Positions 4,925 to 7,899 of a stretch of DNA of 64,000 bases are shown here, one piece after another. The notes under the pieces were generated by a model. The model ran no database searches. It had not been told where the DNA came from and saw only the letters and a list, made by a program, of their open reading frames with translations. The stretch is taken from contig NZ_JACIJG010000001.1 of NCBI RefSeq assembly GCF_014199265.1, positions 372,001 through 436,000 on the forward strand, given 5' to 3'. The DNA comes from Brucella daejeonensis (lineage in GTDB: Bacteria; Pseudomonadota; Alphaproteobacteria; Rhizobiales; Rhizobiaceae). A program made the translations under genes and the position numbers. How positions within the stretch are numbered: position 1 is the stretch's first letter; the number at the start of each line of letters is the position of its first letter.

Positions 4925-6841
4925 ATGTCGGGCCAGATGTCAGGAATAGGCGATAATACGCGTGATCGTAAAACGGGACCGGTCGATTCCGAACCGTTCA
5001 AGCGCGCGATAACGGCCTGTGTTCGCGCCATTTCCGGCGAGCATGAGCTGGAGGTCGCCTTCACAAACGACCGCCCGGCATTGAGCGCCAATCGCGCCCG
5101 TCTTCCTGATCTGCCGAAGCGTCCGACCGCGCATGACGTCGCCGTCACGCGCGGCCTCGGCGATTCCATGGCCCTGCGGCAGGCGCGGCACAATCCGCGT
5201 ATTCATGCCGCGCTCGCCCCTGAAGGCAAACAGGCCCGGGCGATTTTCGACGCAGTCGAGCAGGCGCGTGTCGAAGCCATCGGCGCCCGCGCCATGGCCG
5301 GGGTCGCGGACAATCTCGCGACCATGCTGGCCGACAAATATTCGAAAGCCAATTTCGCTGCCGTCACGAACAAGGAGGATGCGCCGCTCGAGGAAGCCGT
5401 ATCGCTTCTGCTGCGTGAAAAGCTGACCGGACGGCCCGCACCTGCCGAAGCCGGACAGGTGCTTGATCTGTGGCGCGACTGGATCGAGCAGAAGGCCGGT
5501 TCCGAATTTGCGCGTCTGGGTGAAAATCTCGAGGACCAGCAGGCTTTTGCGCGCACGGTGCGCGACATGCTCGCTTCCATGGACATGGCGGAAGAGCTGT
5601 CGCAGGAAGAGCCGAGCGACGACGAAGAGCAGAACGACGAGCAGACACCGGATTCCGACGAGAACGAGGAAGGCGGCGACGAGAGCCAGGAAGGTTCCGA
5701 TTCGTCTGAAAGCGAAGAGTCTGACAGTTCCAGCGACGAGAGCGAGCAGGGCGAGATGGACGCGGCGGACGCTTCCGCCGACGACATGGACGACAGCGAG
5801 GACATCGACGCGGAAACGCCGGGCGATACGCGCCGTCCCAACCAGCCCTTCGCCAATTTTGCCGAGCATGTCGATTACAAGGTTTTCACCCGCGAGTTCG
5901 ACGAGGAGGTCGAGGCGACCGATCTTTGCGACGAGGCGGAACTGGAACGTTTGCGCAGTTTCCTCGACAAGCAGCTTGCGAATCTGCAGGGCGTGGTGGG
6001 GCGTCTCGCCAACCGGCTCCAGCGCCGCCTGATGGCGCAGCAGAACCGTTCGTGGGATTTCGATCTGGAAGAAGGCTATCTCGATACGGCGCGCCTGATG
6101 CGTGTCGTGATCGATCCGACGCAGCCGCTTTCCTACAAGATGGAACGCGACACGGATTTCCGCGATACGGTCGTGACGCTGGTGCTGGACAATTCCGGCT
6201 CCATGCGCGGGCGCCCGATCACCGTTGCCGCGACCTGCGCCGATATTCTGGCGCGCACGCTGGAGCGCTGCGGCGTGAAGGTGGAAATTCTGGGCTTCAC
6301 CACCAAGGCGTGGAAGGGTGGCCAGTCGCGCGAGGCGTGGCTTGGGCGCGGAAAGCCCGCCAATCCGGGCCGTCTCAACGATCTGCGCCATATCGTCTAC
6401 AAGAGCGCCGATGCGCCCTGGCGGCGTGCGCGGCGCAATCTGGGCCTGATGATGCGTGAAGGGCTGCTCAAGGAAAATATCGACGGTGAAGCGCTGATCT
6501 GGGCGCATCAGCGGCTTCTGGGCCGCTCCGAGCAGCGCAAGATCCTGATGATGATTTCGGATGGCGCGCCGGTGGATGATTCCACGCTGTCGGTCAATCC
6601 CGGCAATTATCTGGAGCGGCACTTGCGTGCCGTGATCGAGGAGATCGAAACGCGCTCTCCGGTGGAACTGATCGCCATCGGCATCGGCCACGATGTGACG
6701 CGTTATTATCGCCGGGCCGTGACCATCGTGGATGCGGAAGAGCTGGCGGGCGCGATGACCGAGCAGCTTGCTTCCCTGTTCGAGGAACAGGGTGCTGCGG
6801 GCAGCGGGCGGGGTAAACGCCGCGCTGGCGGCAGGAGATAA
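4925..6841 (+). CDS. cobT: Cobaltochelatase subunit CobT
   Basis: Non-ATPase partner of CobS that forms the chaperone-like CobST ring activating CobN. The 638 residues show an alpha-helical N-terminal region, then a strongly acidic Asp/Glu/Ser stretch at about 225-300. A C-terminal von Willebrand factor A domain begins near residue 415 with the MIDAS motif DNSGS, and [11 protein letters not shown] lies near 540. The acidic linker is typical of CobT. An alternative ATG at 4940 would remove five residues. A strong bidirectional terminator follows immediately. Confidence 0.95.
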
Positions 6842-6866
6842 AAAAGGGGCCATTGGGCCCCTTTTT
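6841..6866. terminator. Bidirectional terminator between cobT and the queuosine transporter gene
   Basis: A perfect 11-bp stem, AAAAAGGGGCC with GGCCCCTTTTT, encloses the loop ATTG. It carries U-tracts in both directions, so it can end both convergent transcripts. Its last base overlaps the stop of the minus-strand gene. Confidence 0.85.
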
Positions 6867-7522
6867 CATGCTTTTTCCGCGGTCGTGCGGTTTGGTGCAT
6901 AAAGCGTCGGCGCGAATATTGCGAGGATTGCGCCATAGGGAATCAGCATCAGCGTTCCCATGACGACCTTGACGATGAAATCGCCGAAGGCGAGCGAGGC
7001 CCAGAGCGGCACACCGAGCCCGAGGAAGGACGCAGGTTCGGCCAGCGACGAATCGGGCATACCGGTCATGCGGTCGATCCATGCGAAGCCCGCCGCGAAA
7101 GCGATGGAGAAGAACAGGAGCGTATCCAGCACGGAACCGAACATCGCAGCGGCAAACGGCGCTTTCCACCAGGTCCTGCGGCGCAGGCCGTTGAATACGG
7201 TGATGTCCAGCAATTGCGCGAGAAGGAAGGCGGAGCCTGAGGCGATGGCGATGCGCGGGGTGGCAAGCCAGACCGACATGACGACACCGAGCACGAAACC
7301 GGCATAGACGACCCTGCGCGCGGCGGCTGGCCCGAAACGGCGGTTCGTCAGGTCGTTGACCAGAAAGGCGACGGGATAGGTGAAGGCGCCATAGGTGAGC
7401 ACTTCGCCGAGGCCGAAATGCCGGAACGGATACTGGACCAGAATATTGGACGCGGCGACCGCCACGCACATGGCCAGTATTGCAGGCGCAAGCCGGGAAT
7501 AAGAAGGTGTCTCGATCGACAT
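6866..7522 (-). CDS. Queuosine precursor transporter (YhhQ/VUT family)
   Basis: Integral membrane protein of 218 residues from the COG1738 family, which imports queuosine precursors such as preQ0 and preQ1. Six or so hydrophobic helices are visible. Family motifs include an N-terminal NILVQYPF and the GAFTYPVAFLVNDLTNR block at about residues 37-55. The start is the ATG at 7522, which sits inside a preQ1-I riboswitch fold immediately upstream. This independently supports the ligand. A longer reading from 7564 would translate through the aptamer and is unlikely. rpmB lies upstream on the same strand behind a terminator. Confidence 0.88.
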   Translation of the reverse strand: MSIETPSYSRLAPAILAMCVAVAASNILVQYPFRHFGLGEVLTYGAFTYPVAFLVNDLTNRRFGPAAARRVVYAGFVLGVVMSVWLATPRIAIASGSAFLLAQLLDITVFNGLRRRTWWKAPFAAAMFGSVLDTLLFFSIAFAAGFAWIDRMTGMPDSSLAEPASFLGLGVPLWASLAFGDFIVKVVMGTLMLIPYGAILAIFAPTLYAPNRTTAEKA

Positions 7523-7548
7523 TTTTTTATCCTGGGTGATGGAACCAG
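7520..7548 (-). promoter_or_regulatory. preQ1-I riboswitch overlapping the start codon
   Basis: Read on the minus strand from 7548: P1 is CTGG paired with CCAG. Loop 1 is TTCCATCA, followed by the candidate ligand-pairing C at 7536. L3 is an A-rich strand ending in six A. These elements line up position for position with the classic B. subtilis aptamer (GGTTC, CACCC, ATAAAAAA). The pseudoknot P2 would be CAT (7541-7539) pairing with the ATG start codon (7522-7520). The Shine-Dalgarno AGGA overlaps the 3' strand of P1. Ligand binding should therefore hide both ribosome site and start codon. The gene downstream encodes a queuosine-precursor transporter, as expected. Confidence 0.8.
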
Positions 7549-7549
7549 C

Positions 7550-7579
7550 AAAAAAGGCCGACAAATGCCGGCCTTTTTT
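7550..7579 (-). terminator. Intrinsic terminator of rpmB
   Basis: An 11-bp perfect stem (7550-7560 with 7569-7579; AAAAAAGGCCG and CGGCCTTTTTT) with an 8-base loop and a U-tract. It lies 24 bases past the rpmB stop. Its T-run ends one base before the preQ1 aptamer begins. Confidence 0.85.
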
Positions 7580-7602: not shown

Positions 7603-7899
7603 TTAGGCAGCAGCGACTTCAGCCTGCTTCTTTGCGATCTGGCGCTTCAGCAGGCGGGCACGCTGCGAGAGTTCCTTGTCGTCGGACTTGGCGAGGAACG
7701 CATCCAGGCCGCCGCGATGCTCGACCGAACGCAGGGCGTTGGCGGAGATGCGCAGACGATAGCTCTGGCCGAGCGTTTCGGAGATCAGCGTTACATTGCA
7801 GAGATTGGGCAGAAAGCGGCGACGCGTCCGGTTGTTCGCGTGGCTGACATTGTTGCCGTACTGGACCGACTTGCCGGTCAATTCACAAGCGCGGGACAT
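7603..7899 (-). CDS. rpmB: 50S ribosomal protein L28
   Basis: Structural protein of the large ribosomal subunit. The 98-residue sequence begins [23 protein letters not shown] and contains the conserved [11 protein letters not shown] segment followed by a basic C-terminus. Length and start agree with alphaproteobacterial L28. It is transcribed alone from a good promoter at 8024-8052 and ended by a strong hairpin at 7550-7579. Confidence 0.97.

Follow-up and report, generated by a model that had tools for sequence, protein, structure and literature searches.

The locus examined here is the start of yhhQ, a queuosine precursor transporter gene on the minus strand of a 64,000-nucleotide stretch of Brucella daejeonensis DNA (the window), and the question it raises is whether the start codon of this gene is itself a strand of a riboswitch. 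An earlier note on this DNA had proposed a 29-base minus-strand element ending in the ATG of the transporter. Minus-strand positions 7548 to 7520 do read exactly CTGGTTCCATCACCCAGGATAAAAAAATG, 29 bases whose final three are the ATG of yhhQ, and the assignment of the gene held up in a match to TIGR00697. We conclude that the element is very probably a translational preQ1-I-type riboswitch of the Rhizobiaceae yhhQ mRNA, with a loop CAU that captures the start codon and a preQ1-type ligand that would repress the importer. Rhizobiaceae, or the family, is meant in the wide GTDB sense throughout.

Anatomy of the element

At up to three mismatches, CTGGTTCCATCACCCAGGATAAAAAAATG has a single site in the window, where 0.00 are expected from 100 shuffles. 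Position 1 of the element is window 7548 and position 30 is window 7519. The gene and the parts of the element are as follows.

6866..7522, minus strand: yhhQ, queuosine precursor transporter of 218 amino acids (TIGR00697, 98.7 bits, cut-off 50.95)
7545..7548, minus strand: 5′ strand of stem P1, CUGG, positions 1-4, read from the sequence
7542..7544, minus strand: loop L1, U5 U6 C7, the type III-like three-nucleotide form (T6-C7 class, see below)
7539..7541, minus strand: 5′ strand of helix P2, CAU, positions 8-10, complement of the start codon (sequence and free-loop scan, see below)
7536..7538, minus strand: L2, C11 and A12, together with C13, the presumed preQ1 specificity base by homology to E. 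coli C14/C15 (PMC10622847)
7532..7535, minus strand: 3′ strand of P1, CCAG, positions 14-17, read from the sequence and fixed by the selecting pattern
7530..7533, minus strand: Shine-Dalgarno-like AGGA, positions 16-19, partly within P1 and 7 nucleotides before the ATG, read from the sequence
7523..7531, minus strand: L3, GAUAAAAAA, positions 18-26, an A-tract in which the role of A26 is assigned by homology
7520..7522, minus strand: 3′ strand of P2, AUG, positions 27-29, the yhhQ start codon (sequence and free-pattern scan)
7519, minus strand: position 30, first base of codon 2, a T that is unpaired in the window (from the covariation of positions 7 and 30)

The predicted P1 joins C1-G4 with C14-G17 and has, taken alone, a folding energy of -3.4 kcal/mol; the loop runs overall from U5 to C13, and CAU at positions 8-10 is able to pair with AUG at 27-29. 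This second helix can gain one pair, position 7 with position 30, which is absent in the window (C7, T30). The earlier note has P1 cover the ribosome site; the AGGA overlaps the stem in part.

In the mechanism that we propose, P1 (CUGG/CCAG) would form a hairpin whose groove is crossed by the A-rich L3, and the loop CAU would capture AUG as P2, a helix that the first base of codon 2 would lengthen in about half of the members. A queuosine precursor, most likely preQ1, would bind between P1 and P2 with C13 as the specificity base and A26 as the probable equivalent of E. coli A27, the preQ1-contacting base (PMC10622847). By stabilizing P2, the ligand would hide AUG and part of AGGA and block 30S initiation, and a cell with plentiful precursor would stop making the importer. 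In this scheme the ligand and its affinity, the contacts in the pocket and the direction of regulation are modelled on relatives. Because the genome encodes QueC and TGT homologues, preQ1 is a plausible cellular signal.

Conservation, covariation and gene context

What we see directly is the element, its conservation together with its gene, and the covariation of an extension of P2. A draw of 151 family genomes gave 143 with yhhQ, from 105 genera, and the alignment of orthologous leaders that the earlier note had called for placed the element in 134 of these 143 loci (126 strict and 8 with L2 or L3 variants). Within the genus, all 30 loci examined carry it (35 genomes had a match). The family loci were picked by a pattern that fixes CTGGT, CAT, CCC, AG and ATG, and the invariance of these letters is partly built in. 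Aligned on the ATG, the 134 leaders have a mean majority identity of 0.92 across the 29 bases, compared with 0.34 from -90 to -31, 0.45 from +5 to +33 and 0.64 from +34 to +63; conservation sets in 26 nucleotides 5′ of the ATG, at about 90%. The five bases preceding the ATG are A in every one of the 134 (the pattern demanded at least three of them), G18 is present in 126, and position 12 is A in 119, C in 10 and T in 5.

GTDB genomes were also scanned with a free-loop pattern, which constrains neither the loop nor anything beyond the A-tract; it found at least 118 stretches, with 117 readable matches. Among these matches listed, CAT occurs in 116, the exception being a match without yhhQ in a Bacteroidota metagenome-assembled genome (L158), and ATG directly follows the A-tract in 116; yhhQ lies downstream of 115, the others being L158 and a match near the end of its locus (L191). 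By name, 113 of the 117 ATG-bearing matches listed are Hyphomicrobiales and two have no order. The remaining two bear the exact element under the labels Marinicella sp. W31, a gammaproteobacterial name (L225), and uncultured Rhodobacteraceae metagenome-assembled genome (L229), perhaps through mislabelling or transfer.

Outside the family, the element was found in none of 28 loci of the order examined (30 of 61 matches were taken as loci, and two of these are family members). One of the loci from outside the family (L078) matched a loose GGT..ACCC expression and lacks CAT. Loci L060-L088 except L083 come from other families of the order and have yhhQ after rpmB-like 3′ ends, as judged by eye, without the element. 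When 299 genomes drawn from the phylum were searched with the CAT/ATG pattern, matches came from 12 of the 14 family genomes among them and from 9 others, a number similar to the 8 hits of a reversed control pattern.

The pairing of the start codon has direct comparative support: positions 7 and 30 covary, carrying the CAT/ATG helix one pair further, into codon 2. Our comparison took in 169 leaders: those of the 134 family loci, those of another 27 loci from the genus, and 8 more that were picked by a pattern for the stem-loop only. They fall into two loop classes, T6-C7 in 92 and G6-N7 in 77 (69 and 65 among the 134 family loci). Every G6 leader has a Watson-Crick pair between positions 7 and 30 (77 of 77; G-C 53, C-G 20, A-T 4), compared with none of the 92 T6 leaders, in which C7 is combined with C (40), A (30) or T (22) and never with G (0). 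For comparison, G starts codon 2 in 23% of 308 open reading frames with a Shine-Dalgarno sequence and ATG from the same organisms. Among the free-loop matches listed, all 55 with GG have C at position 30, all 59 with TC have A, T or C there, and both of those with GC have G. Rare G6 loops were sought by pattern in 394 family genomes. Of the 17 matches, 15 run into ATG-G as predicted; of the exceptions, L255 has neither A-tract nor ATG, and L249 lies at a contig end and was left unscored.

The two classes also differ in how base 30 evolves. A FastTree phylogeny built from 168 YhhQ proteins requires 14 or more changes of the loop state. For base 30 the minimum is 28 changes in the T6 class (tree length 19.1), compared with 0 changes in the GG class (tree length 15.3) and 0 in the GC class (13.5, 19 rows). 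Positions 2 and 3 of codon 2 change 19 and 23 times in the GG class. At the T6 rate, 22 changes at base 30 would be expected in the GG class, for which a simple and rough Poisson estimate gives P(0) of about 2 × 10−10; the same rough estimate for the GC class gives P of about 0.01. Since the second residue in the GG class is Leu, Gln, Arg or Pro, the constraint there acts on the nucleotide. The proposal in the earlier note that the loop CAT pairs with the start codon has therefore gained support, with CAT and ATG conserved among relatives and the next pair covarying.

The subtypes of the preQ1-I class were reportedly defined by McCown et al. in 2014. We consider it likely that the element represents a family-wide subtype in which the start codon, joined in about half of the members by the first base of codon 2, lies in a ligand-stabilized helix, and in which two architectures interconvert at one gene. 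One is type III-like (UUC loop, three-base-pair P2, base 30 never G) and the other type II-like (UGN loop, four-base-pair P2). If true, an RNA pocket constrains the codon of the second amino acid. Five leaders (L115, L283, L300, L327 and L328) read CATCTCCCAG, with UC replacing AC before the 3′ strand of P1 and the 7-30 pair kept by eye; UC as opposed to AC at this place sets type I apart from types II and III (PMC11625349).

The yhhQ product also matches Pfam Vut_1 above its cut-off (84 bits) and scores 116.9 bits against NF008406, below the cut-off of 252. Upstream lie two further features.

7603..7899, minus strand: rpmB, ribosomal protein L28, the directly upstream neighbour of yhhQ (TIGR00009)
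7550..7579, minus strand: intrinsic-terminator-like hairpin of rpmB, AAAAAAGGCCGGC-ATTT-GTCGGCCTTTTTT, ending just before P1, read from the sequence

Hairpins like that of rpmB were also seen by eye in the genus loci. At the other end of yhhQ, a hairpin AAAAAGGGGCCC..GGCCCCTTTTT occupies window positions 6840-6866, at the point where yhhQ and cobT converge, and is likely a bidirectional terminator.

Points against the proposed riboswitch and rival explanations

Several results weigh against a start-codon-capturing riboswitch. The earlier note had named a missing covariance-model hit as refuting, and formally this is the outcome: RF00522 (PreQ1) scored the element at 11.0 bits (E = 2; gathering cut-off 39), in a partial alignment over model positions 6-35 (UGGUUC, CCCA, AUAAAAAA), and under strict filters it was found in 0 of 61 family genomes. 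A scan of the window at the Rfam gathering thresholds gave no match, and in a scan of 501 bases at E<=10 RF00522 was absent from the 18 sub-threshold matches, the best of which lie on the rpmB terminator hairpin. Among 14 control genomes RF00522 was found only in B. subtilis, and it left the E. coli type III leader, a validated member, unmatched. Because this validated and crystallized aptamer leader is also missed, the missing hit is not diagnostic. A consensus scan for promoters and terminators listed neither at the locus, and the missing promoter counts on the same side.

The covariation has limits as well. Among 28 distinct rows, one of eight pairs shows two-sided changes, the four P1 and three P2 pairs being invariant; because all P1 pairs and three of the four P2 pairs do not vary, the covariation comes down to one pair, and it is complementarity that argues for P1. 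CTGG is identical in all 134 element-bearing family loci, where the selecting pattern itself fixes it, and no compensated P1 variant was seen by eye among the nine leftover family leaders. Sliding the structure by +3 columns gave the same covariation score (0.032 vs 0.031) with 25% vs 93% of cells paired. In 500 shuffles, none reached the observed fraction of cells paired or the covariation score, and 495 reached the count of pairs that vary on both sides. On supported branches the independent pairs numbered 2 for GG/C (changing the same way in 1.6 on average, never opposite) and 4 of 4 for GC/G, and neither test can reach p 0.05 because the pairs are too few. In addition, the G6 leaders lack the counterpart of the E. 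coli U whose partner is the A in contact with preQ1, and their pocket may differ from the E. coli one.

The element is also lacking in 9 of the 143 family loci (L108, L110, L113, L116, L118, L122, L279, L286 and L315). Locus L110 has a decayed copy and L118 a partial element. These two, with L113, L116 and L122, come from small genomes (about 1.1-2.0 Mb) in which the element is decayed or absent, and this decay is perhaps tied to loss of queuosine synthesis genes. L112, from a 1.9-Mb genome, retains the element.

Some of these points suit other explanations. The substrates imported by YhhQ-family transporters are preQ0 and preQ1 in E. coli, queuine in Chlamydia and both kinds in Bartonella (PMC11570991), and G6 leaders are altered at the counterpart of E. 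coli U7, a base that joins A27 and preQ1 (PMC10622847); a real start-codon pseudoknot might then serve preQ0 or queuine, or the loop classes might differ in ligand or pocket geometry. We regard this as unlikely, given that the A-tract is present in all 134 family leaders of both classes, that C13 is present in all pattern-selected leaders, and that the E. coli type III RNA strongly favours preQ1 over preQ0 (PMC10622847). The very high conservation and the invariant helices would also fit a protein-binding site, whether an operator made of interleaved inverted repeats or a site on the RNA for a translational repressor, and NCAT-16nt-ATGN' is formally an inverted repeat. That account is very improbable in our view: the complementarity of positions 7 and 30 is all-or-none, depends on position 6 and takes three pair types, as fits the extension of an H-type pseudoknot, and the loop, the specificity C and the A-tract coincide with those of a crystallized preQ1 aptamer before the same gene. 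A DNA operator in particular was rejected on the all-or-none, position-6-dependent pairing and on the coincidence of the loop with that aptamer.

An ordinary conserved ribosome-binding region without a switch, in which the loop is complementary to ATG by coincidence, would have good initiation features in its AGGA at 7 nucleotides and its A-rich spacer, and would agree with the lack of an Rfam match above threshold. We give this explanation next to no credence, since conservation is about 90% from 26 nucleotides before the ATG as against 34% further upstream, covariation extends across the start codon, and 115 of the 117 pattern matches listed precede yhhQ.

Comparison with known riboswitches

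Features of the preQ1-I class recur here: H-type pseudoknot complementarity (P1 and P2) in 134 of 143 family loci; a C directly before the 3′ strand of P1 in the window and the 134 leaders, including those with L2 length variants, a base that the pattern fixes; and a queuosine gene downstream (TIGR00697; yhhQ after 115 of the 117 matches listed). The earlier note had likened the element to the B. subtilis aptamer, and of this likeness the preQ1-I-type architecture stood, while the type III subtype fits better. The known riboswitch nearest to it is the type III preQ1-I element in front of E. coli yhhQ, whose aptamer has been crystallized (PMC10622847). Type III is almost exclusively gammaproteobacterial (PMC10622847), and queuosine riboswitches are mostly limited to Firmicutes (PMC3766115).

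The two share yhhQ downstream, a UUC-NNU-C-A-C loop after GG, the specificity C, a run of A before the 3′ strand of P2, a three-base-pair P2 with identical inner U-A and outer C-G pairs, and, in the T6 class, a three-nucleotide L1 (PMC10622847). In the E. coli RNA, P2 consists of U11-A28, C10-G29 and C9-G30, with U7-A27-preQ1 and a C8-A28-U11 triple (PMC10622847); in the window the counterparts are offset by one, namely U10-A27, A9-U28, C8-G29, U6, A26 and C7. Marks of type III are UU following the 5′ strand of P1, a loop rich in pyrimidines and AC ahead of the 3′ strand of P1. The loop of the window and the T6 class (92 of 169) reads UUC CAU C AC, a single A lying within the P2 strand; departures are UG for UU in the G6 class (77 of 169) and CC or UC for AC in 15 of 134 family leaders. 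The E. coli RNA and the element differ in the middle pair of P2 (C-G there, A-U here) and in what is captured, the Shine-Dalgarno AGG there and the start codon AUG here (PMC10622847). Here, moreover, P1 covers part of the Shine-Dalgarno sequence, the linker is short, and 65 of 134 family members have a two-nucleotide L1 and a four-base-pair P2 reaching codon 2. A switch between the type III and Rhizobiaceae forms needs a two-sided change of the middle pair, by which AGG becomes AUG.

Among 30 pattern matches from other classes in the phylum draw, 21 have GGGTTCCCTCACCCC..AAAAAGG ahead of yhhQ, 20 of them within 60 nucleotides and one at 63; these genomes are presumably gammaproteobacteria. By eye, the base after the 3′ strand of P2 is never G in these 21 type III-type leaders, as in the T6 class. 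The 3′ strand of P2 in type III is the Shine-Dalgarno AAGG, whereas the window and 116 of the 117 free-pattern matches listed have AAUG. Because that strand is AAUG with the start codon, we call the element type III-like and not a member of type III; the Rhizobiaceae form would be related to, or convergent with, that subtype.

The type II aptamers of B. subtilis queC and T. tengcongensis (Tte) share AC before the 3′ strand of P1. In comparing type II spacing, we take U6 to be the Tte base concerned. The G6 class shares with Tte a two-nucleotide L1 and a four-nucleotide P2 strand (numbering of PMC10622847). Type II differs in loop sequence, and B. subtilis acts by transcription termination while Tte captures Shine-Dalgarno bases and not AUG (PMC10907184, PMC10622847). 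The two architectures at one gene would suggest that known preQ1-I subtypes can turn into each other when a single base passes from loop to helix or back.

Other direct-occlusion riboswitches (SAM-II/V, SAM-III, SAM-SAH and preQ1-II) likewise have the initiation signal in or beside the aptamer, mostly in an H-type pseudoknot, but the signal that they are described as trapping is the ribosome-binding site and not the start codon itself (PMC10907184). A preQ1-responsive Listeria leader with an upstream AUG1 is described as showing stop-codon read-through, not pairing of an aptamer loop with a start codon (PMC12519234). The terms 'start codon' and 'AUG' are both absent from the main text of PMC11625349 and PMC10622847. 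In the titles and abstract beginnings of the open-licence literature no description of this arrangement was found; a mention in McCown et al. 2014 is possible.

The element would mark a riboswitch in most of a large family (rhizobia, Agrobacterium, Mesorhizobium and Brucella relatives) that is invisible to the public model, and its paired and unpaired variants would form a natural series for testing how one pair across the start codon tunes repression. In the literature compared, known translational preQ1-I riboswitches trap the Shine-Dalgarno sequence, whereas in the Rhizobiaceae form the trapped signal is apparently the start codon itself, with pairing that extends into the coding sequence.
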